Shown: one piece after another, positions 1-61,032 of the stretch
Layout: each line of letters opens with the position of its first letter
How positions within the stretch are numbered: the first letter of the stretch is position 1
NCBI GenBank assembly: GCA_024275915.1
Contig: JAJRYG010000068.1
Location: 1 to 64,000, forward strand
Length of the DNA: 64,000 nt
Origin: Gammaproteobacteria bacterium
GTDB taxonomy: Bacteria; Pseudomonadota; Gammaproteobacteria; UBA6429; Thiohalophilaceae
Reading direction: 5' to 3'
Translations under genes and position numbers: made by a program
The notes under the pieces: generated by a model
Told to the model about the DNA's origin: nothing
What the model saw: only the letters and a program-made list of their open reading frames with translations
Databases searched by the model: none

Positions 1-615
1 AATGAAGACGGCACCATGGCACGGCGTCCCGAGCTGGAAAAATTTGCCGAAGAGCACGGCATCAAGATAGGCACCATCGCCGATCTCATTCATTATCGTT
101 TGCACAACGAAAAAACTGTCGAGCATGTGGCCGAGTCGAGAATGCCAACCGAGTTCGGCGAGTTCAAGTTGCATGCCTATCGCAATATCATCGACGACCA
201 GGTTCATCTTGCCATGGTCATGGGGGAGCTGGACGACCCCGACGATCCGGCACTGGTGCGGGTGCATGTGGAAAACAGCCTGTGTGACATCTTCGGCAGT
301 CTGCGTGAAGACTGTGGCTGGCCGCTGCGCGACGCCCTCAAGCGCATCGCGACCGAAGGGCGCGGCGTGGCCATTATCCTGCGCCTGGCCGACGAATCGG
401 ATGTCTTGATCAACCAGATCAAGCAGTATGCCGACATTGATGCCGGGCTGGATCTGCCGGCCCATGAAAGTGGTGAAGACCTGCGTACCTTTGGTGTCGG
501 CGCACAGATCCTCACCGACCTGGGCGTGCAGAAAATGCGTGTACTCAGTGCACCGAAAAAAATGCACGGGCTTTCCGGTTTTGGCCTGGAAGTGGTCGAA
601 TACGTGCATACCTGA
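1..615 (+). CDS. ribBA: RibBA C-terminal part (5' truncated), GTP cyclohydrolase II-like domain degenerate
   Basis: The frame is open from base 1 and gives the last 204 residues of a RibB/RibA two-domain riboflavin protein. The first 30 or so residues (GTMARRPELEKFA, KIGTIADLIHYR) are the end of the 3,4-dihydroxy-2-butanone 4-phosphate synthase domain; the rest aligns with GTP cyclohydrolase II. Active GCHII enzymes bind zinc through three cysteines in an RVHSEC...RCDCG pattern. Here the same stretch reads RVHVENSLCD...REDCG, so two of the three ligands are missing. By inference the RibA half is not catalytic and a separate ribA lies elsewhere. ribH follows after 62 bases. Confidence 0.9.
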   Translation, partial: NEDGTMARRPELEKFAEEHGIKIGTIADLIHYRLHNEKTVEHVAESRMPTEFGEFKLHAYRNIIDDQVHLAMVMGELDDPDDPALVRVHVENSLCDIFGSLREDCGWPLRDALKRIATEGRGVAIILRLADESDVLINQIKQYADIDAGLDLPAHESGEDLRTFGVGAQILTDLGVQKMRVLSAPKKMHGLSGFGLEVVEYVHT

Positions 616-8153: not shown

Positions 8154-8507
8154 GCTCGAAACGTCTCGGAATCTAAACATGCGATCATGCTGTTATATAG
8201 GGTGACATGCAAGTGAAATATTACTTTAAGACTGGTGTAATACGCTGATTACAAGAATTAAATTGTTAACACTATCACAGAAATTATTACCACAATAAAA
8301 ATAATAGTACTAAGGCATGTATTTCGAACAGCAAAATACTGCCACAATGACAAGACTTGATGGCATTGCTGTCCCTGACCGTGCAGCACAGGGGACAGAA
8401 TGTCGAAACGGTCCCGGAGGCGGGCTTCCAGCTTGACAGTTCGGTTCGTCACGGGTAGCCTCAGCAGGATCTTTGCGAGTAAAAAAATAACTGAAATTCA
8501 AGCACCT
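8154..8507. promoter_or_regulatory. AT-rich divergent intergenic region between dxs and squalene synthase
   Basis: 354 bases separating divergent starts. The middle (about 8210-8330) is strikingly AT-rich compared with the coding sequence around it and must carry promoters for dxs (minus) and the hopanoid operon (plus). I see several TATAAT-like hexamers but no single convincing -35/-10 pair. The squalene synthase frame is open back to 8400, but the stretch before 8508 does not look like its family. Confidence 0.5.
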
Positions 8508-9623: not shown

Positions 9624-11587
9624 GGGATGCAGCAAAAGCAAAAAGTGCAGCAAATGTCAGTAATCTCAATGAAGGTGTCCATGCTCTTTCACGGGAGCAG
9701 CAATCGGGACTCGATGCTTCCATAGACTGTGCCAGGCAAGCCCTGCTTGCCCAGCAGAATGCCGAGGGCTACTGGTGTTACGAGCTGGAAGCGGATTGTA
9801 CCATCCCGGCCGAGTACATCATGATGATGCATTTCATGGATGAAATCGAAACCGGCCTGCAGGCCAAGATTGCCGTCTATCTGCGCAACCACCAGCAGGA
9901 AGACGGTGGCTGGCCACTGTACCATGATGGTCCATTCGATCTCAGTTGCAGTGTCAAGGCCTATTATGCCCTGAAACTGGCCGGTGACAGTGCCGATGCC
10001 GATCACATGATCCGGGCCCGCAAGCGCATTCTCGCTGCCGGTGGTGCCGCCCGCAGCAATGTCTTTACCCTGCTGGCGCTGGCCATGTTCGAACAGGTGC
10101 CCTGGCGCGCCGCACCCATCGTACCGGTCGAGATCATGTTGCTGCCACGCTGGTTTCCGTTCCACATCAGCAAGGTGTCCTACTGGTCCCGTACCGTTAC
10201 CGTGCCGCTGGCAATCCTCTGCACACACAAGGCCAGGGCACGCAATCCACTCGACATCGGCATCAGCGAACTGTTCACCGGCGATCCCTGGAAGACTCGT
10301 TTCAAAACGCCCAGCCGTTCCTCACTCAACAAGATTTTCATTGCGCTGGAGAAGGTAGCCAAGTTCATCGAGCCACTGACTCCCCAGTGGATCCGCAACA
10401 AGGCCACCGCCCGTGCCGAGACCTGGTTTGTCGAACGGCTCAATGGTGAGGGCGGCCTGGGTGCCATTTTTCCGGCCATGGTCAATGCCTACGAAGCGCT
10501 GGATCTGCTTGGTTACCCGGCCGATCACCCCATGCGCGTCACAGCCAAGAAGGCCATCAATGAGCTGCTGGTGATCGGCGAAGACTCGGCCTATTGTCAG
10601 CCCTGCAATTCGCCCATCTGGGACACGGGCCTGGCCTGCCTGGCCCTGCAGGAAGCCGGCAAGGCGGACACGCAGACGAAGAAGGCGCTGGACTGGCTGA
10701 AAACAAAACAGTTGCTGGAAGAAAAGGGTGACTGGCAGGAATTTCGTCCCGAGCTACCTGGCGGCGGCTGGGCCTTCCAGTTCAAGAACGACTTTTATCC
10801 CGATCTGGACGACACGGCGGTAGTGGCCTGGGCCATGCACAATGCGAAATCCGAGGACTTCGACTTCGCCGTGCAACGTGCCGCAAACTGGCTGCGCGGC
10901 ATGCAGTCGTCCAATGGTGGCTTTGCCTCGTTCGAAATCGACAATGAATACTATTTCCTCAACGAAATCCCGTTTGCCGATCACGGTGCATTGCTGGATC
11001 CGCCTTCGGCCGATGTCAGTGCCCGCTGTGTGACCCTGTTTGGCCTGCTCGCCGATGAGACCAGCTCCTATCAGGAATCGATGCAAAAATGCCTGCAGTA
11101 TCTTGCCCGTGAGCAGGAAGACAATGGCAGCTGGTTCGGTCGTTGGGGAACCAACTACATCTATGGCACCTGGTCGGTGCTGGTGGCGCTGGAAAAAGCC
11201 GGTGTCGACCGGCAGGATCCCATGGTTCGGCGCGCTGTCGACTGGCTCAAGTCGACGCAGTGCTCCGATGGTGGCTGGGGGGAGACCAACGACAGTTATT
11301 TCGATGACTCCCTGGCGGGCAAGGACAAGAAGAGCACGGCCTTCCAGACCGCCTGGGCGATGCTGGCCCTGATGGCCGGAGGTGAATCCGATACCCTCGA
11401 ACTGCACCGCGCTGCCGCCTATCTGATCCGCAACCAGAAAGAAGATGGCCTGTGGCACGATGACGCATTTACGGCGCCGGGTTTTCCCAAGGTATTCCAT
11501 CTCAAATACCATGGCTACGACAAGATCTTCCCGCTCTGGGCGCTGGCGCGGTTCCGCAACCTCAAATCCCAGGCGGACAACGGCTGA
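9620..11587 (+). CDS. shc: Squalene-hopene cyclase
   Basis: 655 residues, normal for the family. Cyclises squalene to hopene/hopanol at the cytoplasmic membrane. The catalytic DxDD motif is D395-L-D397-D398, and several QW repeats are seen (QEDGGWPLY, SNGGFASFE, EDNGSWFGRWG, SDGGWGETNDSY, KEDGLWHDDAF). The start overlaps the squalene synthase stop, so substrate supply and cyclisation are translationally coupled. hpnG and hpnN follow on the same strand. Confidence 0.98.
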   Translation: MRDAAKAKSAANVSNLNEGVHALSREQQSGLDASIDCARQALLAQQNAEGYWCYELEADCTIPAEYIMMMHFMDEIETGLQAKIAVYLRNHQQEDGGWPLYHDGPFDLSCSVKAYYALKLAGDSADADHMIRARKRILAAGGAARSNVFTLLALAMFEQVPWRAAPIVPVEIMLLPRWFPFHISKVSYWSRTVTVPLAILCTHKARARNPLDIGISELFTGDPWKTRFKTPSRSSLNKIFIALEKVAKFIEPLTPQWIRNKATARAETWFVERLNGEGGLGAIFPAMVNAYEALDLLGYPADHPMRVTAKKAINELLVIGEDSAYCQPCNSPIWDTGLACLALQEAGKADTQTKKALDWLKTKQLLEEKGDWQEFRPELPGGGWAFQFKNDFYPDLDDTAVVAWAMHNAKSEDFDFAVQRAANWLRGMQSSNGGFASFEIDNEYYFLNEIPFADHGALLDPPSADVSARCVTLFGLLADETSSYQESMQKCLQYLAREQEDNGSWFGRWGTNYIYGTWSVLVALEKAGVDRQDPMVRRAVDWLKSTQCSDGGWGETNDSYFDDSLAGKDKKSTAFQTAWAMLALMAGGESDTLELHRAAAYLIRNQKEDGLWHDDAFTAPGFPKVFHLKYHGYDKIFPLWALARFRNLKSQADNG

Positions 11588-11605
11588 GCGATGTTGCTTA
11601 GTTAG

Positions 11606-12319
11606 ATGTCACATCTTGGTATTGTGGTGGCGCTTCGAGACGAAGCGTCATCACTGACAGAATCAAAACCCACACTTCGTACGCCCATTTCCCTGACAGA
11701 CAACGTGACACTCATGGTATCCGGCATGGGAGCCGCTCATGCAGTCCATGCGGCCCGTGACCTGCTCGATCGGGGGGTTACCGCCCTGATGAGTTATGGT
11801 ACCGCCGCCGGGCTGGCACCGGCGCTGCGCTCCGGTGATGTGATTCTGGCCGACTACCTGCTCGATGCGCAGGGTACGCGTCATGAGATTGCCGGCGCCT
11901 GGTCGCAGATCCTGGAGGAGAAACTGACCGGTGTGCGGAACCTTCGGCGGGGCGGGATTTGCCAGAGTGACACGGTCATTGCCACGCCTGCCGACAAGGC
12001 TGGACTCTACCGGCGCACCGGTTGCCTGGCGCTGGATATGGAAAGTGCGGCCCTGGCGGCCTTGGCCGGGCAGACCGGTGTGCCTTTTATCAGTCTGCGG
12101 GCGGTTGTCGATACGGCAGACATGTCTCTGCCGGCCAGTTTGCTGACCGCACTGGACGAGGACGGCAATGTCAGTCTGACAAAACTCCTGCCGGCTCTGC
12201 TGCCAAGGCCTGCTGACTGGCTGGCACTGGTGAAACTGGCCAGGGCGTTTGCGGCGGCTTCGCACAACCTGAGTCGCTGTCGGCAGCTGGCGGGGGTGCA
12301 TTTTTTATTGCAGAATTGA
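11606..12319 (+). CDS. hpnG: Hopanoid-associated phosphorylase HpnG (adenosylhopane nucleosidase)
   Basis: 237 residues of the purine nucleoside phosphorylase fold: GIVVALRDEASSL at the start, VSGMGAAHAVHAARDLL, and CLALDMESAALAALA with the ribose-binding ME pair. HpnG removes adenine from adenosylhopane, the step after HpnH. It lies 18 bases after shc in the hopanoid operon. General nucleosidases share the fold; the assignment rests on sequence plus context. Confidence 0.88.
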   Translation: MSHLGIVVALRDEASSLTESKPTLRTPISLTDNVTLMVSGMGAAHAVHAARDLLDRGVTALMSYGTAAGLAPALRSGDVILADYLLDAQGTRHEIAGAWSQILEEKLTGVRNLRRGGICQSDTVIATPADKAGLYRRTGCLALDMESAALAALAGQTGVPFISLRAVVDTADMSLPASLLTALDEDGNVSLTKLLPALLPRPADWLALVKLARAFAAASHNLSRCRQLAGVHFLLQN

Positions 12320-12553
12320 ACAACAGCTCAGCCAGTCGTTGCATGAATTTCCGGATGCAGGGGTTGCCGTGCAGGATGAGATCATCCTGGCCTTTCGCAA
12401 CACTTGGTGTCCTGCAGATCGTCCCGGCGGCAGACACGGAATATCAATCACTGGCAGCAGGCGTGAGGTGAATAGGCGTTTTCCCCGGGGTGCCATGGAA
12501 GGTGCAATGATTGGGTTTATCCTGCCTGGTTTGGCCCTGATAAAGGTTTTGAT
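12320..12553. repeat. hpnG-hpnN gap with fragments of two dispersed repeats
   Basis: Bases 12343-12372 (CGTTGCATGAATTTCCGG and onward) resemble the right end, read on the other strand, of the terminal-inverted-repeat element at 30641-30838. Bases 12438-12495 (GGAATATCAATCACTGG... GTGAGGTGAATAGGCG) resemble copies at 20236-20295 and 21713-21754. No gene is credible here. Confidence 0.55.
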
Positions 12554-15193
12554 GTGAAGACAGAAGCACGAATTGGTCAGTTTCTCTCGGCCTGGACCGG
12601 CCTGGTGACCCGTCATGCCTGGGCGGTGGTCATTTTCTTTGTCCTGTTTGCGGCAATGGCGCTGTATTACACCGTGACCCATATTGGTATCAATACGGAC
12701 ACGGAGAACATGCTGGATGAAAAGCTGCCGTACCGGCAAACCCTCAAGACCTACAAGCAGGCCTTTCCCAATCATCTGGATGTCATGCTGCTGGTGGTGG
12801 ATGGCAAGCATCCTGTGGCGGTGGAAAAAGCGGCAAAACGCCTGGCCGAGAAACTGGCCGGGGAAAAACAGGCTTTCAAGTCGGTCTATCTGCCCGGAAC
12901 AGGGGAATTCTTCGATAAAAATGGCCTGCTCTATCTGCCCACCTCCGAGCTGAAGAAGCTGGCTCGGGATCTTGGTCGTTCCGGTTTGATGCTCTCGGAA
13001 CTCAAGCGCACACCCACCGCCGGCAAGTTGCTCAGTATCATTCCTGTTGCGGCGGTGGGCTCGGTCAGCGATGATCAGGGTGGCGATATCGGCCCCTTGC
13101 TCGACGATCTGAATCGGTCTCTGACGGCTTACCGGAATGATCAATCCCGCCCCCTGCAATGGGAGTCGATCTTCCCGACCGGTTCCCTGACAAGAACTAC
13201 ACGGGTGATCATCGTCCAGCCGATCCTGGATTTCAAGGATCTGCTGGCCGCGGGCAAGGCCATCAGTACCATACGGGAGCAGGCACGGGAACTGGGTATC
13301 GATGCACAACACGACCTGCGCCTGCGTGTCACCGGCGAAGCGGCCCTGGCCTACGACGAGATGAAAAGTGTCAGCCAGGGCATGGGGCTGGCCGGCATCA
13401 TGGCGCTGATTCTGGTCATTGCCGTGCTATGGCTGGGCACCGGTTCCCTGCGCATTCTGATCTTTTCTATTGTTGCCCTGTTGATTGGCCTGTGCCTGAC
13501 GGCGGGCTTTGCCACCCTTTCCGTGGGCAGTCTCAATCTCATTTCCATTGCCTTCGCCGTGCTTTACATCGGTCTGGGCATCGATTTTTCCATTCACCTC
13601 AGTCTGCGATATGAAGAGCTGCTCAAGCAGAAGATCCCCAACCTGGCGGCCCTGCGTGAATCATCCCGGGACGTAGGCGTCTCACTGGTCATTTGTGCCG
13701 TGTCCACGGCCGTGGGTTTCTATGCTTTCATTCCCACCCAATTCATCGGTGTCTCCGAGCTCGGGATCATTTCCGGCACTGGCATGTTCATCAGCCTGTT
13801 CGTCAGCCTGACACTGTTGCCGGCCCTGTTTGCCATTTCACCGATGCCGGTGAAAAAGATTCCGGCCATGGAATATCGCAGTGTACTGGGTTACTGGTCG
13901 GACTTTCCGCTGCGTCACGGCAAGCCCATACTGATAGCAACGGCACTGCTGGTAGCGGGCTCGCTCTACCTGATGCCTCGTGTGCATTTCGATTATGATC
14001 TGCTGAACCTGCGTGATCAGTCCAGCGAGTCGGTCGCCACCTTCCGTGATCTTGTGAAGGGCGGTGATTTTTCCCCTCTTCGCCTCACAGTGCTGGCTGA
14101 AAATGATCAACAGGCCAGGGCCCTGCGGCAGAAACTGTTGCAGTTGCCTTCGGTGGAGCGGGTCTTTTCACTCGAAGAACTGGTTCCGGCCGATCAGGAT
14201 GCCAAGCTGAAGATCATCCGCAAACTGAAAAAACGCCTGAAAATCGTTACCCGGACACAGGCCAAAGCCGATGCCAGGACCACATTGGATGATCTGCTTG
14301 CGGCTGACGAGGCCATTTTGCTGGCTCTGAAAGAAAATCCTTCGTCACTGGATGCAAAACTCGAACAGCTTCATCAGCAACTGACTGCGGTCATCGCCAG
14401 GCTCAAAAACCTGTCTGCCGATGCGCAACAGGCTGCGCTGCAAAAGCTGGACCGGGAATTGATGGGGACATTCCCTTCGGTGCTCGACAAACTGCAAACC
14501 ATCATTCAGGCACGACGTATTGAGCTGGCCTCCCTTCCCGAGCATGAACGTGCCCACTGGGTGAGTCCCGTCAATCAGGCTCGCATGCTGATGGTCTTCG
14601 CAAAGAAGGATTTGCGTGACGTGCATGCCCTGCGGGAATTTGTCCAGCAGGTCAGCAGCGTGGCAGACAAGGTTACCGATATTCCGGCCATCAGCCTGGC
14701 GGCGGGGGACGCTGCGGTACAGGCCTTTCAGCAGGCCTTTGTGACGGCCTTCTTGCTAATTTTCCTGTTGCTGATGTTACTGATGAAAAACATCCGTGAC
14801 ACGATTCTGGTGCTGACACCGCTGATCCTGGCAGGGTTGTTTACAGCCGCGGCGGCTGTGCTGTTTGATATTCCCTTCAACTTCGCCAACATCATCGCCT
14901 TGCCCCTGTTGCTGGGAATCGGTGTGGACAATGGTATCCACATGGTCAGCCGTGCCCGCCACAGTCACACCAGCAGCAGGAACCTGCTGCAGACCAGTAC
15001 TGCAAGAGCCGTGATCCTCAGTGCCCTGACCACGGTCGGCAGCTTTGGCAATCTGGCCTATTCTTCCCACCCTGGTACCGCCAGCATGGGCCAGTTGTTG
15101 ACACTTGGGGTATTCCTGACCATGGTCTGTACGCTGGTCATTCTGCCTGTGCTGCTTGCCTGGCGTTTCGATGACAAGGCAGCATCGGCCTGA
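12554..15193 (+). CDS. hpnN: Hopanoid transporter HpnN (RND superfamily)
   Basis: 879 residues with two RND/MMPL-type halves: a membrane helix near 20-45, a large periplasmic loop, five or so helices at about 275-440, then the same pattern repeated with helices in the final 150 residues (GIGVDNGIHMV in the second set). Known HpnN proteins carry hopanoids from the inner to the outer membrane. The start is GTG, just after a TGA in another frame; no ATG with a better signal is near. It ends the plus-strand hopanoid operon. Confidence 0.9.
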   Translation: MKTEARIGQFLSAWTGLVTRHAWAVVIFFVLFAAMALYYTVTHIGINTDTENMLDEKLPYRQTLKTYKQAFPNHLDVMLLVVDGKHPVAVEKAAKRLAEKLAGEKQAFKSVYLPGTGEFFDKNGLLYLPTSELKKLARDLGRSGLMLSELKRTPTAGKLLSIIPVAAVGSVSDDQGGDIGPLLDDLNRSLTAYRNDQSRPLQWESIFPTGSLTRTTRVIIVQPILDFKDLLAAGKAISTIREQARELGIDAQHDLRLRVTGEAALAYDEMKSVSQGMGLAGIMALILVIAVLWLGTGSLRILIFSIVALLIGLCLTAGFATLSVGSLNLISIAFAVLYIGLGIDFSIHLSLRYEELLKQKIPNLAALRESSRDVGVSLVICAVSTAVGFYAFIPTQFIGVSELGIISGTGMFISLFVSLTLLPALFAISPMPVKKIPAMEYRSVLGYWSDFPLRHGKPILIATALLVAGSLYLMPRVHFDYDLLNLRDQSSESVATFRDLVKGGDFSPLRLTVLAENDQQARALRQKLLQLPSVERVFSLEELVPADQDAKLKIIRKLKKRLKIVTRTQAKADARTTLDDLLAADEAILLALKENPSSLDAKLEQLHQQLTAVIARLKNLSADAQQAALQKLDRELMGTFPSVLDKLQTIIQARRIELASLPEHERAHWVSPVNQARMLMVFAKKDLRDVHALREFVQQVSSVADKVTDIPAISLAAGDAAVQAFQQAFVTAFLLIFLLLMLLMKNIRDTILVLTPLILAGLFTAAAAVLFDIPFNFANIIALPLLLGIGVDNGIHMVSRARHSHTSSRNLLQTSTARAVILSALTTVGSFGNLAYSSHPGTASMGQLLTLGVFLTMVCTLVILPVLLAWRFDDKAASA

Positions 15194-15217
15194 GCAGATT
15201 TTTCGAAAAGAAAAAAT

Positions 15218-15628
15218 GGCTCTCCAGAAGGATTTGAAGGTGGCCACCGTACCAACCCCCTCTCCCTCCGGGAGAGGGTTGGGTGAGGGGGGCAATCAGG
15301 ACAGACTGTATCTGTTCAAGCCACGGTGAAGTTCGCCTGGTATTTCGTGCTTCCAGAGACGCACAAGCGGATAGCCCATTGCTTCCAGACGGTTTGTTCG
15401 TCTGGCTCCCTGGGCGATTTGTTCAGCCTATTGTCCGCCATCGGCTTCGATGATCAATTTGGCATCCAGGCAAACAAAATCAACCATTTAGCAGGCTGTC
15501 GAATAACGGCGTTTTTCAACAGCCTGTTAAGAAAACAGGTCACATTGCGCCATTGTCATTGTCACGATATCAACAACTTGAAACAGAAACACAACCATCT
15601 CCACCCGCAAATTTTTCTAACGAGGTGA
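15218..15628 (-). repeat. Dispersed DUF559-derived repeat, copy B (most complete)
   Basis: Read on the minus strand it starts CTCGTTAGAAAAATTTGCGGG, passes through the palindrome around CAGGCTGTTGAAAAACGCC (15505-15541), and continues as MVDFVCLDAKLIIEADGGQ, TAG stop, AEQIAQGARRTNRLEAMGY. A one-base deletion after GELH then breaks the frame. It ends with the CCCTCACCCAACCCTCTCCC/GGAGGGAGAGG hairpin. It lacks the 230-base insertion of copy A. Confidence 0.75.
15505..15541. repeat. 35-nt imperfect palindrome, copy in repeat B
   Basis: Two 17-nt arms (CAGGCTGTTGAAAAACG and, reverse-complemented, CAGGCTGTCGAATAACG) match at 15 of 17 positions. Further copies are at 36543-36577 and 47790-47824. 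It could form a strong hairpin in RNA. Confidence 0.7.
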
Positions 15629-15727
15629 AAATTGCCAGGGAGTTGCACTCGTGCTTTTTTCTCTAGGGGGACAGCGCCATGAAGAAGGTTGTGGTTGCTC
15701 AGCAGAGCGCAAAGGCATGGTCTTTAC

Positions 15728-15780
15728 CGGGACAGGTGAGCCATTGTTGCAAGCACACGCCAAACCGGGCACCTGTCCCG
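15728..15780 (-). terminator. Inverted repeat at the 3' end of hpnA
   Basis: CGGGACAGGTG at 15728-15738 and CACCTGTCCCG at 15770-15780 form a perfect 11-bp stem with a 31-base loop, 24 bases past the hpnA stop. There is no clear U-run, so termination is only suggested. Confidence 0.4.
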
Positions 15781-15803
15781 TACTGGCAGGCCGGTTTGAA
15801 ATT

Positions 15804-16796
15804 TCAGCCCCTGGCCTGTTCTCTGAGTACCCATTCGACCGCATCACGCAGTGCTTCTTCCGGGGGTCGTGGCCGGTAACCCAGTTCGCGGTTGGCCTTT
15901 TCACAGGAAAAATACATCCACTTCTTCGCCATGCGTATGCCGTCAACGGTGACCTGGGGTTCCTTGCCTCTGGTCAGCCGGGCAAAGGCTTCGGAGAGAT
16001 AGGCAATGGGCAGGATCAGGTTGTGGGGGATGCAGATCTTCGGGGCCTTTTGATCCGTGAGTTCGGCGATGGTGGTGAGGATGTCCTTGAGCGACATGTC
16101 GGTGCCACCGAGGATATAACGCTCACCAATCTTGCCATGCTGGTAGGCAAGCAGGTGGCCTTCGGCCACATCGTCCACGTGCACGATATTCAGCCCCGTA
16201 TTGACGTAGGCGGGCATCTTGCCCAGCGTGGCATCGGCCACCATGCGGCCTGTTGGTGTGGGGCGCCGATCCCGTGGGCCGACCGGTGTCGAAGGGTTGA
16301 CGATCACGGCGGGCAGGTCCTTTTCCCTGATCAGGCTCTTCACTACTTCTTCGGCCAGAAACTTGGAGCGCTTGTAATGGCCGATCATGGTTTCCAGCGA
16401 AGAAGGCGTGTCTTCCGTCGACGGTTTGCCGTCGGGATGCAGACCAAGCACGGCGACACTGCTGGTATAGACGATTCGTTCCACGCCACTGTCCAGTGCC
16501 GCCTGCATGAGCTTGCGGGTACCTTCGACATTGGTCTGGTAAAGCTCATCGGGGTTCAGTGACCAGAGGCGATAGTCGGCAGCGACGTGGAACAGACTGT
16601 CACAGCCTTCTATGGCTTTTTTCAGCGACTCGGCATCGGTCAGGTCGGCGTTGACCTGTTCCACCGGCAGATCCTGGATGTTGCGCCGGTCACTGCTTGG
16701 GCGCAGGGTTACGCGAACCTCGTGACCCTGCTCGATGAGTTTTCGCGCCACCGCCGAGCCAACAAACCCTGATGCGCCGGTAACCAGTGCTTTCAT
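15804..16796 (-). CDS. hpnA: Hopanoid-associated sugar epimerase HpnA
   Basis: 330 residues, an extended SDR. The NAD-binding TGASGFVGSAVA (7-18), HVAADYRLW, TSSVAVLG and active-site HYKRSKFLAEEVV (Tyr/Lys) motifs are intact. The family occurs in hopanoid clusters, where it is thought to act on the sugar moiety of composite hopanoids. It is last in ispH-hpnH-hpnB-hpnA, three bases after hpnB. Confidence 0.92.
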   Translation of the reverse strand: MKALVTGASGFVGSAVARKLIEQGHEVRVTLRPSSDRRNIQDLPVEQVNADLTDAESLKKAIEGCDSLFHVAADYRLWSLNPDELYQTNVEGTRKLMQAALDSGVERIVYTSSVAVLGLHPDGKPSTEDTPSSLETMIGHYKRSKFLAEEVVKSLIREKDLPAVIVNPSTPVGPRDRRPTPTGRMVADATLGKMPAYVNTGLNIVHVDDVAEGHLLAYQHGKIGERYILGGTDMSLKDILTTIAELTDQKAPKICIPHNLILPIAYLSEAFARLTRGKEPQVTVDGIRMAKKWMYFSCEKANRELGYRPRPPEEALRDAVEWVLREQARG

Positions 16797-16799
16797 GTC

Positions 16800-17978
16800 T
16801 TATTCTCCTGCCTGCTGTTGTGGCGGTGTTGCCGCCTGATCTTTCGCTGCCAGTTGTCTGTCGTAAACCCGCTGTTTCCAGCTGCTGCGATGACCTGTCC
16901 AGTAGCGAATCGCCGACGACCAGGTCATGGCGAGGAACAGGCTGGCAATCACGGGCATCAAAAGGGCCCAGGCAACGGACAGCCGATAGTATCGCAGGGT
17001 AGGCAGGTAACAACCGGCCATGATGGCGAGGGTAAACAGACTGAGCAGCCGGAGCTGATCACTGAGCAAAGGGTTGAACAGGTTGAACAAGGGTAACAGG
17101 TAGGCGATGAACATGATCATCATCACACCGAGCAGCAGTGTCAACGAGTAATGCAACTGGGTAAAGGCGGTACGTGCCACCATGTTCCAGATGTCGGCCA
17201 GGCTGTGTCCACTGCGGGTGCTGCGTATCGAATGGCTCAGGCCCAGCCAGATCCGGTAGCCATGTTCCTTGATCTTGCGTGCCAGTGTACAGTCATCAAT
17301 CAGTGAGTCGCGCAGGGAAGCAAAGGCGTCTACGTCATCCAGGGCTTTTTTCTCCACCAGGATACAGCCACCGGCCGCTGCAGCAATTCTTTTCAGGCGC
17401 GGATCATTGGTGAGGCGAAACGGGTAGACCAGCTTGAAGAAATGGATGAAGGCCGGCAGCAACAGCTTTTCCCAGGGATTTTGCATGTGCAGTTGCGCCA
17501 TCAGCGAAACCAGTTGCAGGTTTTCCCTCTGCATCTTGTCCTTGAGGGTGGCGAGGATGCCGGTCTGCAGTTCGATGTCGGCATCGAGCAGCAGGATGCG
17601 CGGGGTCTGAACCTGCTGGCGTCCCTGTTGCAGTGCCCAGAGCTTGCCACTCCAGCCTTCGGGCAGGGGCTGGCCCTGGATAACGGTCAGCTTGTCCAGG
17701 CCGGTCTGGCGGGCAAGTTCAGCGGTATTGTCGGTGGATTGATCATCGATGACGATGATGTGCAGCCCCTGGCCCTGGCGGGCCAGGGCCTCTAGGGTGG
17801 ACTTGATGTGGGCCGCTTCGTTGCGGGCCGGAATGAGTACGGTGATGTCACCGAGATCGGCACTGGCGAGTTCCGTCTCGCTGTCCAGGGCTTCCCGCAC
17901 ACCCCAGGGCCGCCAGGGCAACAGCAGGATGATCAACCAGAGGCCGGCACTCAGCCAGGCCAGAACCTCGAATCCCAT
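16800..17978 (-). CDS. hpnB: Hopanoid-associated glycosyltransferase HpnB
   Basis: 392 residues, family 2 glycosyltransferase. An N-terminal membrane helix (1-23) is followed by VLIPARNEAAHIKSTLEAL, the DxD-like LLDADIELQ, and DDCTLARKIKEHGYRIWLG; two or three C-terminal helices anchor it to the membrane. It starts one base before the hpnH stop region and runs into hpnA, so the three are one transcript. The donor sugar cannot be read from the sequence. Confidence 0.92.
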   Translation of the reverse strand: MGFEVLAWLSAGLWLIILLLPWRPWGVREALDSETELASADLGDITVLIPARNEAAHIKSTLEALARQGQGLHIIVIDDQSTDNTAELARQTGLDKLTVIQGQPLPEGWSGKLWALQQGRQQVQTPRILLLDADIELQTGILATLKDKMQRENLQLVSLMAQLHMQNPWEKLLLPAFIHFFKLVYPFRLTNDPRLKRIAAAAGGCILVEKKALDDVDAFASLRDSLIDDCTLARKIKEHGYRIWLGLSHSIRSTRSGHSLADIWNMVARTAFTQLHYSLTLLLGVMMIMFIAYLLPLFNLFNPLLSDQLRLLSLFTLAIMAGCYLPTLRYYRLSVAWALLMPVIASLFLAMTWSSAIRYWTGHRSSWKQRVYDRQLAAKDQAATPPQQQAGE

Positions 17979-19097
17979 TCAGGAGGTACTTTCCTCACCA
18001 GGCGCTACGAATTTGACCGCCTGGCCGGTTTGTTCGTTTTCCTTGTAGCTGATGGGCAGTTCCGGTGCCATGGGACCGTCGGTACGGGGGCCGAACAGGG
18101 CCACTTTCATTGCTGTAAAGGGACGGGCGAAGGTGTCGTCGATGGCGGTGGGTTCATAACCGCAGTGAACCATGCAGTCGGCGCATTTGGGATTGCGGCC
18201 GTAGCCGTAGTTTTCCCACTCGGTTTCTTCCATCAATTCCTTGAAGGAACTGGCATACCCCTCACCGGCGAGCAGGTAACAGGGCTTTTGCCAGCCAAAG
18301 ATGCTGCGGGTCGGGTTGCCCCAGGGGGTGCACTGGTAGGACTGGTTACCGGCCAGGTAATCGAGAAACATGCTGGACTGGTTGAAGCGCCACTTGACCT
18401 TGCGCTTCTTGCCCAGTTTGAAGATTTCCCGGAACAGGCGCTTGCTGGCCGAGCGGCGCAGGAAAATGTCCTGGGAAGGGGCGGCTTCGTAGTTGTAACC
18501 GGGGGAGATGGTTACCCCTTCTACCCCCAATTCTGTGCACATGTCGAGAAACTCGGCAATTTCCTCGGCCGGCTCGCCCTGAAACAGGGTGTAGTTGGTG
18601 GTGACGCGAAAGCCCTTTTCCAGTGCCAGCTTGATGGCGGCGATGGCCTTGTCGAATACACCTTCCTGACATACGGAGGCATCGTGGCGTTCACGGTTGC
18701 CATCGAGATGGATGGAAAAGGTCAGGTAGGGAGAAGGCTCGAACTTGTGGATGTGCTTGGGTAACAGCAGGGCATTGGTACACAGGTAGACGAACTTCTT
18801 GCGTTCGATGATGCCTTCGACGATCTTGTGAATTTCCTTGTGGATCAGGGGTTCACCACCGGGAATCGAGACAATGGGGGCACCACATTCGTCGACGGCA
18901 GCCAGGCTCTCCTCGACACTGAGGCGCTGGTTGAGGATTTCATCGGGATGGTCGATCTTGCCGCAGCCGGCACAGGCCAGGTTGCAGCGGAACAGGGGTT
19001 CGAGCATCAATACCACCGGGTAACGTTTTACACCGCGGATTTTCTGGCCAAGAATGTATTTTCCGACCCGGTACTGCTGAACGAAAGGGATGCCCAT
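17979..19097 (-). CDS. hpnH: Adenosyl-hopene transferase HpnH (radical SAM)
   Basis: 372 residues. The radical SAM CxxxCxxC motif is in FRCNLACAGCGK, followed by SIPGGEPLIH and a C-terminal cysteine cluster (CADCMVHCGYEP). HpnH attaches the 5'-deoxyadenosyl group to hopene, giving adenosylhopane, the parent of all side-chain-extended hopanoids. It lies 30 bases after ispH; both gene products carry 4Fe-4S clusters. Confidence 0.97.
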   Translation of the reverse strand: MGIPFVQQYRVGKYILGQKIRGVKRYPVVLMLEPLFRCNLACAGCGKIDHPDEILNQRLSVEESLAAVDECGAPIVSIPGGEPLIHKEIHKIVEGIIERKKFVYLCTNALLLPKHIHKFEPSPYLTFSIHLDGNRERHDASVCQEGVFDKAIAAIKLALEKGFRVTTNYTLFQGEPAEEIAEFLDMCTELGVEGVTISPGYNYEAAPSQDIFLRRSASKRLFREIFKLGKKRKVKWRFNQSSMFLDYLAGNQSYQCTPWGNPTRSIFGWQKPCYLLAGEGYASSFKELMEETEWENYGYGRNPKCADCMVHCGYEPTAIDDTFARPFTAMKVALFGPRTDGPMAPELPISYKENEQTGQAVKFVAPGEESTS

Positions 19098-19127
19098 TTG
19101 GTAACCTCGAGATTCTGTCTTTGTCTG

Positions 19128-20075
19128 TTATGTGCCGGCGGCGACGGATTTTTTCTGCAGCAGGGATTTTGGCAGGCGGAAAGTGGTGGATTCCCTTTCG
19201 CCGTCCATTTCCCGAATGTGGTCTACGCCATATTCGCGCAATTTGTCGATAACGCGCTGGACAAGCACTTCGGGGGATGAAGCACCTGCGGTAATGCCAA
19301 TTCGGGACACCCCGTTCAACCACTCCTTTTTCAGGTCTTTTTCGTCCTGAATCAGGTAGGCGGGCAAGTTACACTGTTCACCGACTTCCCGCAAGCGGTT
19401 GGAGTTGGAGCTGTTGCGCGCGCCCACCACCAGCAGCAGCTGCACATCGCGGGCCAGCTCGTTGACGGCATTCTGCCGGTTCTGGGTGGCATAGCAGATG
19501 TCATCGAGCTGTGGGCCCTGAATATGAGGGAAGCGCTTGTGCAGGGTGTCGATGACATCCCGTGTGTCGTCGATGCTCAGGGTGGTCTGGGTGACGTAAG
19601 CGACACGGGCATCGTCGCCCAGCGGCAGTTTGTCGATGTCTTCGGTGGTGGAGACCACATGCACTGGCCCATCTACCGAGCCCATGGTGCCAACCACTTC
19701 CTCATGGCCGATATGACCGATGATGATGACCTCGTAGCCATCCTTGCTGTATTTCTTGGCCTGCAAGTGCACCTTGGTGACCAGCGGACAGGTGGCGTCG
19801 ATGACTTCCAGGTTGCGGGAGACGGCCTGATCGACCACCTTGTCGGCCACGCCATGTGCGCTGAAAATGGTTACTGAACCGGGCGGGACTTCATCAAGGG
19901 TTTCGACGAAAACCGCACCCTTGGTGCGCAGATCTTCGACGACAAAATGATTGTGGACGATTTCATGGAAAACATAGACGGGGGCACCATAGAGCTTGAT
20001 GGCCATTTCGACGATGTCGATTGCCCGGACAACGCCGGCGCAAAAGCCGCGGGGCTGGGAAAGAATAACTTCCAT
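19128..20075 (-). CDS. ispH: 4-hydroxy-3-methylbut-2-enyl diphosphate reductase
   Basis: 315 residues. Last step of the MEP pathway, giving IPP and DMAPP. The three cluster cysteines are seen in PRGFCAGVVRAI, DATCPLV and the DDICYATQNRQ region, and FSAHGV and SSNSNRL are substrate-binding motifs. It heads the hopanoid operon on the minus strand, so the final isoprenoid step is transcribed with the hopanoid modification genes. Confidence 0.97.
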   Translation of the reverse strand: MEVILSQPRGFCAGVVRAIDIVEMAIKLYGAPVYVFHEIVHNHFVVEDLRTKGAVFVETLDEVPPGSVTIFSAHGVADKVVDQAVSRNLEVIDATCPLVTKVHLQAKKYSKDGYEVIIIGHIGHEEVVGTMGSVDGPVHVVSTTEDIDKLPLGDDARVAYVTQTTLSIDDTRDVIDTLHKRFPHIQGPQLDDICYATQNRQNAVNELARDVQLLLVVGARNSSNSNRLREVGEQCNLPAYLIQDEKDLKKEWLNGVSRIGITAGASSPEVLVQRVIDKLREYGVDHIREMDGERESTTFRLPKSLLQKKSVAAGT

Positions 20076-36540: not shown

Positions 36541-36855
36541 CCAGGCAGTTGAAAAACGTCGTTATTCGACAGCCTGCTAAATGGTTGATTTTGTATGCCC
36601 GGATGCCAAATTGATCATCGAAGCCGATGGCGGACAATAGGCTGAACAAATCCCCCAGGGTGCCAGACGAAAAACCCGGCTGGAAGCAATGGGGTATCCG
36701 CATGTGCGTTTGTGGGATCACGAAATACCAGGCGAACTTCACGGTGTGCTTGAACAAATACCGTCGGCCCTGATTGCCCCCCCTCACCCCAGCCCTCTCC
36801 CTGAGGGAGAGAGCGTTGGCGTGGTGGCCACCCACAAAGTCTTCTGAATCGCCAA
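36541..36855 (+). repeat. Dispersed DUF559-derived repeat, copy C
   Basis: Starts with a worn copy of the 35-nt palindrome (36543-36577), then MVDFVCPDAKLIIEADGGQ, the same TAG stop as copies A and B, AEQIPQGARRKTRLEAMGY and RLWDHEIPGELHGVLEQI, and ends with the CCCTCTCCC/GAGGGAGAG hairpin and CTTCTGAATCGCCAAA. It lies between the luxI and luxR pseudogenes. Confidence 0.75.
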
Positions 36856-36891
36856 ATTTTTCAACAATCTGTCAGGAGGTCATGATTGGCT

Positions 36892-37561: not shown

Positions 37562-37683
37562 GATACGGGTTGCAAGGATTCATGGAGGGACTTTTTCAAC
37601 ATCTTGCTCAAAATATAGGTGAGCGTCTCTCATGTTACCATGCAGGCTTCCGCGCGTTTGTTGCTGAAAAATAGTCTGAGACA

Positions 37684-45465: not shown

Positions 45466-47700
45466 ATGACAGCTGACAAGACATATCCATTCATTGGTTT
45501 ACTGTTGCTCGGTGTGCTTGGTTTGAGCGCGTGTGGGGGTAGCAATGATGCTAAACCACCAGCCACGGTAACTCCTCCGGTGACCCCTCCTTCGGTCACG
45601 CCGGTCAGTGGTCTGGACAGTCGGCCGGCCAATCCGGACTGTGTGGCACCGGATGTGATGGCAGCGGTGGGTACCAGCATCACTCTCGAACGCTACTTTC
45701 CCAACCTGACGTTCAACCGGCCACTGGTCTTCATCCAGGCACCCGGGAATACCTCGCGCTGGTATGTGGTCGAACAGGCAGGGGTGGTCAAGGTCTTCGC
45801 CAATGATCAGGCCACCGGCACAGCCACTGACTTCATCGATATCCGCAGCTGGGTCAATTCCGGTGGCGAGAAGGGCCTGCTGGGCATGGCCTTCCATCCC
45901 GACTTTCAGAACAACGGTTACGTCTATCTGTCCTACACGGCAGGTAATCTCGAATCCCGCATCTCCCGCTTTACCAGCCCGGATGGCGGACAGAGTCTGG
46001 ATCCGGCCAGTGAAGTGATTATTCTGAGCGTCACTCAACCCTATGGTAACCACAATGGCGGTCACATTGCCTTCGGGCCTGACGGTTATCTCTATATCGG
46101 TCTGGGGGATGGTGGCAGCGGGGGAGATCCCGCTGGCAATGGCCAGAATACCAAAACCCTGCTGGGTGCCATGCTGCGCATCGATGTGAATGTTTCCGCA
46201 ACCGACTGGAGCGCGGGAATCCGCTACTCTATTCCTTCCAGCAATCCATTTGCTTCCAGTGCAAGCTGTGCTGCCGAAGGCTGCCCGGAAATCTATGCCT
46301 GGGGGTTGCGCAATCCCTGGCGCTGGAGTTTCGATTCGGGCACGGGCGATCTGTGGCTGGCCGATGTAGGGCAGAACCAGTGGGAAGAAGTGGACCTCAT
46401 CGAGCTGGGGGGCAACTACGGCTGGAATATCCGCGAAGGAGCCCATTGTTACGGCGGGGGGGCGTGCATCACCATTGCACTGAACGAACCGGTGGCGGAA
46501 TATGATCATTCCAATGGCGACTTTTCAATCACCGGCGGTTATGTCTACCGGGGCAGCGCCAGTCCGGGCCTGCTGGGCAAGTACCTGTTCGGTGACTTTG
46601 GCAGTGGCCGGATCTGGAGTCTGGACTACTACAATGATCCTGCCGCCGCGGCTGTCGAGTTGATCGATACTACCTATAACATCAGCTCGTTTGCCCAGGG
46701 GCACGATGGTGAACTGTATGTCCTCAGTTACTATTCGGGTGAAATCTTCCACATCGTCGAGTCAAGCACCTCAGGTGGCAGCACCATGCCGTCCAGCATC
46801 AAGGACACGGGTTGCGTGGACAAGGCCGATCCCAAAAAGCCCGCTGCCGGCCTTGTTCCCTATGACATCAATGCACCATTCTGGACCGATGGCGCCACCA
46901 AGGCGCGTTATCTGGCCCTCCCCGACAATACCACCATCAGCATTGATGCCAATGGGGACTGGGAGTTTCCGGCCGGCACCGTGTTGATGAAGAATTTTCG
47001 TCTCGCGGGCAAGCTGATTGAGACCCGTTTTCTCATGCGCCATCCCGATGGCAGCTGGAACGGCTACAGTTATGAATGGAACGATGCACAAACCGACGCC
47101 AGCCTGGTGACGGCGGGCAAGAGCAAGGACATCGCCGGGCAGAGCTGGCTGTATCCCGGCAGTACTCAGTGCATGCGCTGCCACACGGCCGTGGCCAAAT
47201 TTGCCGTGGGTCCGGAAACGGCACAGCTAAACCGGGATTTCCTCTACCCTTCGACCGGCCGCACCGCCAACCAGCTGTACACCTTCGAGCAGATTGGCCT
47301 GTTCAGTGCAGGCCTGTCCGGCGCCCCGGACAGCCTGCCGGCCCTGGCCAATCCCTACGACAGCACGGCCGATCTCGATGACCGGGCCCGCAGCTGGTTG
47401 CACAGCAATTGTGCTTATTGCCATGTCAGTGGTGGGCCGACTCCGGCAGCCATGGATCTGCATTATGCCACCCCCATGAGCGGCATGAACATCTGCAACA
47501 CCAGTCCATTGCATGGAGGCCTGGGCCTGACCGATCCCCGTCTGCTTGCACCTGCAGAGCCTGCCCGCTCGGTGATAAGTGCGCGGATCAGGCTGCGTGA
47601 TGTCAACGGCATGCCGCCGCTGGGCAGCAGCCTCATCGACAGCAGTGGTACGGCGATGGTGGACAGCTGGATCAATGGCCTGGATGGCAGCTGTCTTTGA
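45466..47700 (+). CDS. Lipoprotein fusing PQQ-type sugar dehydrogenase to a diheme cytochrome c
   Basis: 744 residues. Lipobox GLSAC with lipid Cys23, then a Pro/Thr-rich linker. Residues about 75-435 are the soluble glucose/sorbosone dehydrogenase beta-propeller: GEKGLLGMAFHPDFQNNGY, NHNGGHIAFGPDGYLYIGL, YAWGLRNPWRWSFD, ITGGYVYRG. From about 445 a second domain starts (APFWTDGATKARYLALPD), resembling SO2930-type diheme proteins, with heme sites C569-MRC-H573 and C649-AYC-H653. Electrons from PQQ could pass directly to the built-in hemes. Substrate unknown. Confidence 0.85.
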   Translation: MTADKTYPFIGLLLLGVLGLSACGGSNDAKPPATVTPPVTPPSVTPVSGLDSRPANPDCVAPDVMAAVGTSITLERYFPNLTFNRPLVFIQAPGNTSRWYVVEQAGVVKVFANDQATGTATDFIDIRSWVNSGGEKGLLGMAFHPDFQNNGYVYLSYTAGNLESRISRFTSPDGGQSLDPASEVIILSVTQPYGNHNGGHIAFGPDGYLYIGLGDGGSGGDPAGNGQNTKTLLGAMLRIDVNVSATDWSAGIRYSIPSSNPFASSASCAAEGCPEIYAWGLRNPWRWSFDSGTGDLWLADVGQNQWEEVDLIELGGNYGWNIREGAHCYGGGACITIALNEPVAEYDHSNGDFSITGGYVYRGSASPGLLGKYLFGDFGSGRIWSLDYYNDPAAAAVELIDTTYNISSFAQGHDGELYVLSYYSGEIFHIVESSTSGGSTMPSSIKDTGCVDKADPKKPAAGLVPYDINAPFWTDGATKARYLALPDNTTISIDANGDWEFPAGTVLMKNFRLAGKLIETRFLMRHPDGSWNGYSYEWNDAQTDASLVTAGKSKDIAGQSWLYPGSTQCMRCHTAVAKFAVGPETAQLNRDFLYPSTGRTANQLYTFEQIGLFSAGLSGAPDSLPALANPYDSTADLDDRARSWLHSNCAYCHVSGGPTPAAMDLHYATPMSGMNICNTSPLHGGLGLTDPRLLAPAEPARSVISARIRLRDVNGMPPLGSSLIDSSGTAMVDSWINGLDGSCL

Positions 47701-47789
47701 CAAGGTGACGAGGGAACGGGAGAAAAGGGCGGTTAGTTTAACCGTGGCTTAAAGGCCTCGGTTCGTGTCTTTCATCCAGGTGTAGTTAG

Positions 47790-47824
47790 CAGGCTGTTGA
47801 AAAACGCCATTGTTCGACAGCCTG
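47790..47824. repeat. 35-nt imperfect palindrome, free-standing copy
   Basis: CAGGCTGTTGAAAAACGCC followed by ATTGTTCGACAGCCTG. Same palindrome as in repeats B and C but here without the DUF559-derived part, so it can exist by itself. Confidence 0.7.
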
Positions 47825-47860
47825 TGTGAGGGAACGGTAAACCGCGTTTGTCGTTCCCGG

Positions 47861-47892
47861 GTTGAAAAAGGCCAGGGAAGGGCTTTTTCAAC
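47861..47892. terminator. Bidirectional terminator-like hairpin
   Basis: GTTGAAAAAGGCC and GGGCTTTTTCAAC form a 13-bp stem with one mismatch and a 6-base loop. It lies six bases past the stop of the minus-strand gene ending at 47899 and faces the PQQ-fusion gene from the other side. Confidence 0.6.
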
Positions 47893-47898
47893 ATCCTG

Positions 47899-48249
47899 TT
47901 AGCGCTGGAATTTTTTCACTTCATCCATAGGATCGGAGTCATCGAACTTGTCTGACGGCCGGAACACCTTGCAGGCACCTTCCGGTCTGGCTTTACAGTC
48001 GTTATCGCCATCGACATTCCTGATGGTGTTGCTGGCCCACAATGAGGCAATGGCCCAGAGTATGATGCCGAGCATGAGAGTGCCACTGCTGATGCCCTCC
48101 TGCCCCGTTGGTCCACCGAAGAACGCATAGATCAGACTGACGACGCCTGCTATCCAGAAAACACCAATGGGCGCCGCGCAGCAGCCGGCGCATCCATAAC
48201 GGCAGACTGCCAGTGGCGGGACTGTCAGAGCCTGAATCATTCGTTTCAC
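47899..48249 (-). CDS. Small cysteine-rich inner membrane protein, unknown function
   Basis: About 116 residues. Starts VKRMIQALTVPPLAVCRYGC, with a tight cysteine group (CRYGCAGCC), then two membrane helices (APIGVFWIAGVVSLIYAFFG and LMLGIILWAIASLWASN) and a short acidic tail. The GTG is chosen because AGGAG lies six bases ahead of it; the ATG nine bases in is too far from the site. The cysteines could bind metal or a cluster. I do not recognise a named family. Confidence 0.7.
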   Translation of the reverse strand: MKRMIQALTVPPLAVCRYGCAGCCAAPIGVFWIAGVVSLIYAFFGGPTGQEGISSGTLMLGIILWAIASLWASNTIRNVDGDNDCKARPEGACKVFRPSDKFDDSDPMDEVKKFQR

Positions 48250-60745: not shown

Positions 60746-61032
60746 GCCCTGATGGGCCAGGAATTGGTGGTTGAAACAGGCCATGGGGGCTCTTTCAGCC
60801 AGGCCATGGAAAACAGCGTGCCCCGTACCCACATTATTTTAGTGACTTTGTGCCGTGAAAAAATGGCCGAGCCTCACCCGGTGCTTCCGAGGAAAAATTG
60901 TGTTTTTCTACAGCCTGCCAGGTGATGCCGTCCGGTGGCCGGTTGGAGTATAATGCCGGGCTTTATTTGAGCTCGTTTGGGAGAAAACCTCCCATTCGGG
61001 TAAATCTGACCAATTTTGCGGGAAAATTTGTA

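Follow-up and report, generated by a model that had tools for sequence, protein, structure and literature searches.

The window analysed here is a stretch of 64,000 nucleotides from the gammaproteobacterial contig JAJRYG010000068.1 (assembly GCA_024275915.1; positions 1 to 64,000 of the forward strand), and the element under study is a single gene at positions 45466-47700 that encodes a putative lipoprotein composed of a beta-propeller and a diheme cytochrome c module. The source genome is a metagenome-assembled genome (MAG) of 2.34 Mb that is 77% complete. An original prediction, made from the sequence alone, had described the product as a dehydrogenase dependent on pyrroloquinoline quinone (PQQ) that is joined to two heme sites and anchored by a lipid, an order of parts that would let electrons leave directly to the respiratory chain or to the outside of the cell. 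The propeller-diheme protein is real and widespread, and it is uncharacterised as far as literature and database searches show. While the idea of an electron path survives in outline, the label of PQQ dehydrogenase does not hold in the form given. The features of the gene and its product are as follows.

45466-47700, plus strand: whole open reading frame (ORF) of the propeller-diheme lipoprotein, 744 amino acids (aa) plus stop, ATG 45466 to TGA 47700.
45466-45534, plus strand: lipoprotein signal peptide predicted from its motif only, with lipobox LSAC, lipidated Cys C23 (codon 45532-45534) and Gly at +2.
45667-46770, plus strand: six-bladed GSDH-type beta-propeller, about aa 68-435, from the PF07995 match and AlphaFold model m508caec7a49f.
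46051-46053, plus strand: codon of H196, at the position of the catalytic His144 of sGDH; His in 67 of 67 propellers.
46309-46314, plus strand: codons of R282 and N283, which correspond to Arg228 and Asn229 of sGDH; kept in 67 and 66 of 67 propellers, respectively.
46600-46602, plus strand: codon of G379, aligned with sGDH Lys377 (lost).
46678-46686, plus strand: codons N405 to S407, of which N405 and S407 align with sGDH Arg406 and Arg408 (both lost).
46780-47259, plus strand: heme-1 domain, about aa 439-598, beta-rich and then CxxCH; predicted fold nearest to cytochromes P460/c'-beta.
46990-46992, plus strand: codon of K509 in FPAGTVLMK, placed by its motif and a weak profile alignment at Lys78 of Methylococcus capsulatus cytochrome P460 (WPDGAILVK).
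47170-47184, plus strand: heme-1 attachment motif CMRCH (569-573), from the sequence.
47374-47697, plus strand: heme-2 domain, about aa 637-744, of the class I cytochrome c type, with FoxE as its closest match among solved sequences.
47410-47424, plus strand: heme-2 attachment motif CAYCH (649-653), from the sequence.
47611-47613, plus strand: codon of M716 in MPP, putative sixth ligand of heme 2 and present in 53 of 53 domains; no other Met is invariant.

No stop codon interrupts the reading frame, and the GC content at its codon positions 1, 2 and 3 (58, 51 and 68%) follows the pattern of a coding gene. The propeller and the two CxxCH motifs were located in one lipid-anchored ORF exactly where the original prediction had placed them. 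Pfam GSDH (PF07995) spans aa 97-422 with 148.9 bits (gathering cut-off 25), and the NCBIfam model TIGR03806, named 'SO2930 family diheme c-type cytochrome', spans aa 442-738 with 249.7 bits, a score that does not reach the curated cut-off of 313.3; the match covers profile positions 2-313 of 314, with the two CxxCH motifs present. The lipobox was placed after a hydrophobic stretch, and the motif was found mechanically in 13 of 22 fused homologues, in some of which the start codon is uncertain. A linker rich in Pro, Thr and Val lies between the lipobox and the propeller, and residues 1-43 of the AlphaFold model had a predicted local distance difference test (pLDDT) value below 50. The source MAG contains one TIGR03806 match and one GSDH match, both in the fused gene. 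Furthermore, it contains five matches over cut-off to the cytochrome c assembly family Cytochrom_C_asm (PF01578), and attachment of heme c is therefore possible.

Both parts and two CxxCH motifs were found in a single ORF at 22 of 51 related loci taken from named genome contigs, and the fusion is therefore no assembly accident. The 22 fused homologues share 37-61% identity with the window protein in a multiple alignment. Their records are titled as MAGs, of Gammaproteobacteria (several of them Woeseiaceae), of Myxococcota, and of a Deltaproteobacterium, a planctomycete, a verrucomicrobium and Candidatus Sulfopaludibacter, which we take to be an acidobacterium; a few records are labelled only Proteobacteria, and one is labelled Klebsiella. 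This last record, a MAG labelled Klebsiella pneumoniae (L016; L and G numbers denote loci and genomes), carries a propeller-diheme protein 49% identical to that of the window, and a misnamed bin seems likely. In a survey of 321 genomes of the same class, the source genome included, TIGR03806 matches at E 0.001 were present in 35, and at least 19, again with the source genome, encoded the propeller and the diheme module in one ORF. A frameshift or assembly artefact joining two genes, which the original prediction had considered, was ruled out by this architecture survey and the 22 further loci with the same fusion.

Conservation within the diheme module was assessed in 53 domains that were propeller-fused, beta-helix-fused or stand-alone, leaving aside loci whose domain did not score above 100 bits, the redundant copy of each duplicate and the second copy of the window protein. 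Three columns, H573, H653 and M716, and no others, held His or Met throughout this set. Since M716 is present in every domain, we read heme 2 as a probable class I site with His653 and Met716 as its ligands. In a PDB profile search, the nearest solved sequence of the heme-2 domain was FoxE (E 1.2e-4 for the chain). Near-invariant positions were K479 (51/53), K509 (52/53), E519 (53/53), T520 (53/53) and R521 (52/53). For heme 1, no column with a conserved sixth His or Met ligand was found in the 53 domains, so that this heme is likely to be high-spin with a free ligand site. The electron route proposed for the propeller-then-diheme order thus fared differently at its two hemes: an exit at heme 2 is plausible, whereas the notion of a diheme 'wire' is doubtful, since a conserved sixth His or Met is lacking at heme 1.

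An AlphaFold model of the C-terminal region (aa 438-744; mean pLDDT 88.9, predicted template modelling score (pTM) 0.86) was re-aligned to 995 chains. All six chains with a Z of at least 5 were cytochromes P460 or c'-beta, namely 9hrk (7.2), 6hih (7.0), 7s5o (7.0), 6hiu (6.9), 6e17 (6.0) and 8gar (5.4); the chains that followed were unrelated, from Z 4.9 downward. The CxxCH motifs were in register by the aligned ranges (model 1..154 versus 9hrk 23..161). As described in PMC11928373, Lys78 of the M. capsulatus enzyme (McP460) is the cross-linking Lys, and c'-beta proteins have Phe61 or Met79 there (Phe in two of the three). By residue count, Lys78 is the last residue of the motif WPDGAILVK in the McP460 chain, and an alignment sets it against the Phe of a c'-beta protein; profile alignment puts FPAGTVLMK509 of the window protein on the same motif. 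The score of the heme-1 profile against the P460 profile (35.3) exceeded those of 200 full column shuffles (best 22.9). Moreover, no other Pfam family matched as many of the 40 heme-1 domains as Cytochrome_P460 (PF16694), which matched 10 of 40 at a best E of 0.045 and always below cut-off. The window's own heme-1 domain gave no PF16694 match.

Several results weigh against a P460-like heme 1. The Z of about 7 for the fold match lies below the alignment tool's own comfort line of 8, and Foldseek returned nothing for the C-terminal model at E 0.001, with a P460 chain second at E 0.35. Shuffles that kept the CxxCH tail averaged 33.3 and reached 42.0, compared with the real score of 35.3, and when the tail was cut from both profiles the score of 19.6 was reached by 2 of 300 shuffles. 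A hidden Markov model (HMM) of P460 scored the real heme-1 domains no better than tail-kept decoys, with 2 of 40 beating all ten of their own shuffles and 16 of 40 beating the reversed decoy. No sequence bridging the heme-1 domain and P460 was found among the matches in the 321 genomes, no P460 chain appeared in PDB profile searches at E 10, and a few other Pfam families gave single heme-1 members lower E-values than P460 did. By these controls with shuffles, decoys, bridging proteins and PDB profiles, P460 kinship was not established from sequence. The structural match is consistent with such a kinship but modest; a P460-like heme-1 domain is in our view quite possible, though still uncertain, and the domain was not filed as a member of the family.

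The weak or failed sequence controls for P460 kinship fit a plain electron-transfer diheme, in which heme 1 would be six-coordinate with a second ligand that varies, and the P460-like score would be due to chance. H526 occurs in 36 and M524 in 28 of the 53 diheme domains, and either might provide this ligand in many of them. However, beyond the attachment motifs and M716 there is no invariant His or Met column, and it would have to be accidental that all six chains with a Z of at least 5 are P460 or c'-beta. We consider this alternative conceivable but somewhat doubtful. It concerns a question separate from that of the propeller cofactor, so that the likelihoods given for the two do not add up.

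The diheme module also occurs with partners other than a propeller. The five survey genomes with a score over the TIGR03806 cut-off (G012, G165, G046, G283 and G167) have it in stand-alone genes, and all five of these genes were located beside a gene for a TIGR03805 parallel beta-helix protein; in the two neighbourhoods examined, those of G165 and G012, the gene on the other side was TonB-receptor-like. In G038 (L088), beta-helix and diheme module constitute one protein. From these neighbours, this fusion and the propeller fusions it follows that the partner of the diheme module, whether fused or separate, may be a beta-helix or a propeller. At the window locus no beta-helix partner was found adjoining or fused, TIGR03805 not having been searched for in the rest of the genome. 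Three stand-alone copies scored below the TIGR03806 cut-off (G307, G214 and G204), and no beta-helix gene was found beside those of G307 (two neighbours examined) and G214 (one neighbour examined). At L090 4651-7308 (G307), the below-cut-off SO2930-type gene adjoins a gene resembling molybdopterin formate dehydrogenases/nitrate reductases, and L091 has a similar arrangement in which the neighbour was recognised by equal ORF length only. A literature search returned no publication on the TIGR03805/SO2930 pair. In the Shewanella publications examined, SO2930 and SO2931 were mentioned only in passing, the former in a location table under outer membrane/extracellular, and the latter as an outer-membrane cytochrome or cytochrome lipoprotein. 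Since both are documented by location alone, no function is transferable from these papers, and a role in extracellular electron transfer carried over from Shewanella was dropped.

Turning to the propeller, alignment of its AlphaFold model with VIA-align gave Z 36.1-39.5 and root-mean-square deviations of 2.0-2.7 A against PQQ sugar dehydrogenases, about level with human HHIP (Z up to 38.6). HHIP was the closest solved sequence, with 99.9 bits versus 66.7 for sGDH, and it also led the Foldseek list. The sGDH positions were transferred via E. coli YliI by motif alignment, and conservation was counted over 67 propellers after removal of three fragments (L038, L048 and L049). Alongside H196, R282 and N283, the glycine of the Ca-loop (Gly247 of sGDH) is kept as G302 in all 67 propellers; Pro248 of sGDH corresponds to Q303. 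At the position of Lys377 no Lys was found in any of the 44 homologues that have a letter there, out of 51 aligned. Among the 51 homologues, the Arg406 position holds Arg in one (L050) and Lys in three (L018, L021 and L027), the Arg408 position holds Arg in one (L047), and the two arginines together are kept in none of 49. Likewise, in the 19 survey rows, which include the copy of the window itself, none of the three basic residues was kept, irrespective of whether PqqC was present in the genome. D377, two residues before the lost Lys377 position, is Asp in 66 of 67 propellers of the branch, most of which have NPWR instead of NPQG (W 59/67, R 64/67). Arg406 of sGDH presumably has a PQQ-holding role.

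With regard to the corresponding sGDH residues, PMC6881810 confirms His144 and Arg228/Asn229, and PMC6881789 describes the roles of Lys377, Arg408 and His144, with Lys377 and Arg408 at the PQQ carboxylates, and gives main-chain carbonyls as the Ca ligands of the bacterial enzymes. PMC1781467 locates Arg406 and Arg408 in a pocket adjoining the glucose site. Because the basic cradle for the PQQ carboxylates appears to be lost, the propeller is probably not that of a canonical PQQ dehydrogenase, even though the catalytic His/Arg/Asn are kept. The description 'PQQ-dehydrogenase' is thus not supported as it stood. The objection that had been foreseen to it, a propeller lacking PQQ-contact residues, applies by half: H196, R282 and N283 are retained, whereas Lys377, Arg406 and Arg408 are replaced by G379, N405 and S407.

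The lost contacts are no full refutation of PQQ, because PQQ is bound in the fungal AA12 enzymes by residues that differ in part. According to PMC4133262, these enzymes retain the putative catalytic His, while several PQQ contacts differ. For the AA12 holo structure, PMC6881789 reports that two of three PQQ-binding arginines are common with the bacterial enzymes, including Arg621 of CcPDH, and that PQQ in CcPDH is held by His539, His560, Arg273, Arg621 and others. Arg621 is presumably the C-terminal arginine and would hence be among the residues missing in the window protein. That the AA12 enzymes work with PQQ although they have no Lys377 and one Arg lies elsewhere is a point against a propeller devoid of PQQ. 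It fits a non-canonical PQQ quinohemoprotein, in essence the original reading with an altered cofactor site, in which PQQ would sit on the kept His/Arg/Asn/Ca side with other residues at its carboxylates, and a sugar or polyol would be oxidised with electrons passing via heme 1 to heme 2. R98 (48/67 propellers), H348 (44/67) and R362 (58/67) are candidate holders of the carboxylates, and the positions of His144, Arg228, Asn229 and the Ca-loop Gly are nearly invariant. The fungal precedent extends to additional His/Arg residues at the PQQ site and to the fusion of CcPDH with a cytochrome. On the other hand, the Lys377, Arg406 and Arg408 positions are lost, and a near-invariant Asp occupies the former Lys377 strand.

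The supply of PQQ gave a divided picture. Across the class genomes, the PqqC model had any match in 50 of 321 and a match over cut-off in 46 of 321. PqqC was found in 6 of 19 fusion carriers versus 40 of 302 other genomes (Fisher p 0.04, with relatedness ignored), an enrichment that leans to a PQQ link and thus also weighs against the absence of this cofactor. One carrier genome, G275, moreover has pqqC together with a PqqB-like gene at a distance of about 13-16 kb from the fused gene, pqqC itself being about 13-15 kb away. Yet 13 of the 19 carriers are without PqqC, although these may scavenge PQQ from outside. The search for PQQ synthesis genes suggested with the original prediction returned no match for PqqC and only below-cut-off matches for PqqB and PqqE in the source MAG, with its completeness of 77%. 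Neither a clear co-occurrence with PQQ synthesis nor a clear lack of it was established. Taken together, we regard a non-canonical PQQ enzyme as possible but rather doubtful. Directly before the fused gene of G275 (L083 12738-16115), there is a gene for a 1125-aa propeller-cytochrome protein with DUF7133, GSDH, HEAT repeats and cytochrome c.

A non-enzymatic propeller, which would bind a ligand or surface (polysaccharide, protein or metal) in the manner of HHIP and so position a diheme module that does the chemistry, with the beta-helix playing the same part in sister proteins, draws on HHIP as closest solved relative by sequence and Foldseek and on the interchangeable partners of the module, but is unlikely in view of active-site His, Arg and Asn residues that are conserved almost without exception, the Arg-Asn pair being gone in HHIP.

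We tentatively favour a lipid-anchored redox enzyme with a propeller of the HHIP-like branch that lacks a canonical PQQ site, an open P460-like heme 1 and an electron-passing heme 2, a reading that we would place only just short of an even call. The lipid anchor would hold the protein at the membrane, probably the outer membrane, and the central pocket of the propeller would bind a small polar molecule, either substrate or cofactor. The propeller might use another ligand or substrate, or PQQ held differently. Heme 1, attached to CxxCH 569-573 and probably high-spin, would serve as the reaction or ligand-binding heme, while heme 2, with His653/Met716 as its likely ligands, would exchange electrons with heme 1 on the one hand and with a partner, soluble or at the surface, on the other, the direction of flow being presumed. 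A broader proposal, to which we attach some doubt, is that the SO2930-type 'diheme cytochromes' constitute a hidden, widespread branch of P460/c'-beta, in which a catalytic heme, with K509 as a possible cross-link and E519/R521 on the next strand, would be electronically coupled to a class I heme, with a beta-propeller or a beta-helix as the additional module. The window protein would then represent a lipid-anchored propeller-P460-cytochrome c enzyme with its parts in the order of hydrazine synthase alpha.

These considerations matter for annotation. Proteins of the GSDH branch are easily called PQQ dehydrogenases, the Pfam family being named for glucose/sorbosone dehydrogenases, though some residues that grip PQQ are gone. 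Likewise, where annotation gives a plain diheme cytochrome, one heme of the pair may be a concealed P460-like reaction centre; hemes of this kind are known for the chemistry of hydroxylamine and NO. The doubt about the cofactor and the reading of heme 1 change which cofactor and which heme deserve testing.

In the window, the fused gene is flanked by secF and by an ORF of 146 aa that has no match in Pfam. On the one side lie queA, tgt, yajC, secD and secF, and on the other side, beyond the 146-aa ORF, suhB, trmJ, cysE, iscR and iscS (all names assigned from translations). A conserved operon or pathway was ruled out, as ORF clusters other than that of the protein itself recurred in 6 of 24 neighbourhoods at most. 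In G214 (L069) and G093 (L071), the propeller-diheme gene is adjoined by another propeller gene from the same branch, which stands alone. A palindromic element with the core CAGGCTGTTGAAAAA is located at window positions 15492-15526, 36542-36576, 36857-36871, 37592-37606, 47787-47901 and 60903-60917, with a cluster of these palindromes directly downstream of the fused gene. The core had 10 matches in the window at up to 2 mismatches versus 0.13 expected, and the element looks like a repeat of the repetitive extragenic palindrome/miniature inverted-repeat transposable element (REP/MITE) type. Elsewhere in the window, positions 6261-20075 hold a hopanoid/isoprenoid group comprising DXS, squalene-hopene cyclase, an MMPL transporter, an epimerase, a glycosyltransferase, a DUF3463 radical SAM protein and LytB.

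Among known systems, the GSDH family, with sGDH of A. calcoaceticus, Asd/YliI of E. coli and the Asd proteins of P. aerophilum and S. coelicolor, shares with the window protein the six-bladed propeller, the catalytic His/Arg/Asn and the Ca-loop Gly. Unlike sGDH and Asd, the window protein is without Lys377, Arg406 and Arg408 and has a C-terminal diheme module. Human HHIP, which is closest to the window's propeller by sequence and gave the best Foldseek rows, differs in being a binder of signalling proteins without a heme module and, by alignment, without the Arg-Asn pair. The fungal AA12 enzymes CcPDH and TrAA12 have the same propeller fold (Z 30.6-31.6) at 14-16% identity, the comparison being one of fold; CcPDH resembles the window protein in carrying a cytochrome in the same chain, but its cytochrome is N-terminal and of the b-type (AA8 domain).

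In hydrazine synthase alpha, as outlined in PMC12758564, a six-bladed propeller is followed by a middle active-site heme domain and a C-terminal second heme. The resemblance to the window protein is one of part order only: PDB profile searches at E 10 did not list hydrazine synthase alpha, and hydrazine synthase was absent from the matches listed in the structure and sequence comparisons. The iron oxidase FoxE is matched by the window's heme-2 domain in its second cytochrome domain. To our knowledge, FoxE has no propeller or P460-like domain. The cytochromes P460/c'-beta resemble the heme-1 domain in the beta fold predicted for it, which ends in CxxCH (Z 5.4-7.2), and in having no conserved sixth His/Met ligand. 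The cross-link position of cytochrome P460 is occupied by Lys, as would be the case in the window protein with K509 by the weak alignment, where the cross-link itself is putative; in contrast to P460/c'-beta, to which it has no significant sequence match, the heme-1 domain is part of a larger, multi-domain protein. Finally, the SO2930-family cytochromes of TIGR03806 share with the window protein the whole 314-position profile, two CxxCH motifs and the same invariant residues. The window protein differs from the TIGR03806/TIGR03805 pair in its score below the cut-off and in its partner, which is a fused propeller instead of an adjacent or fused beta-helix.

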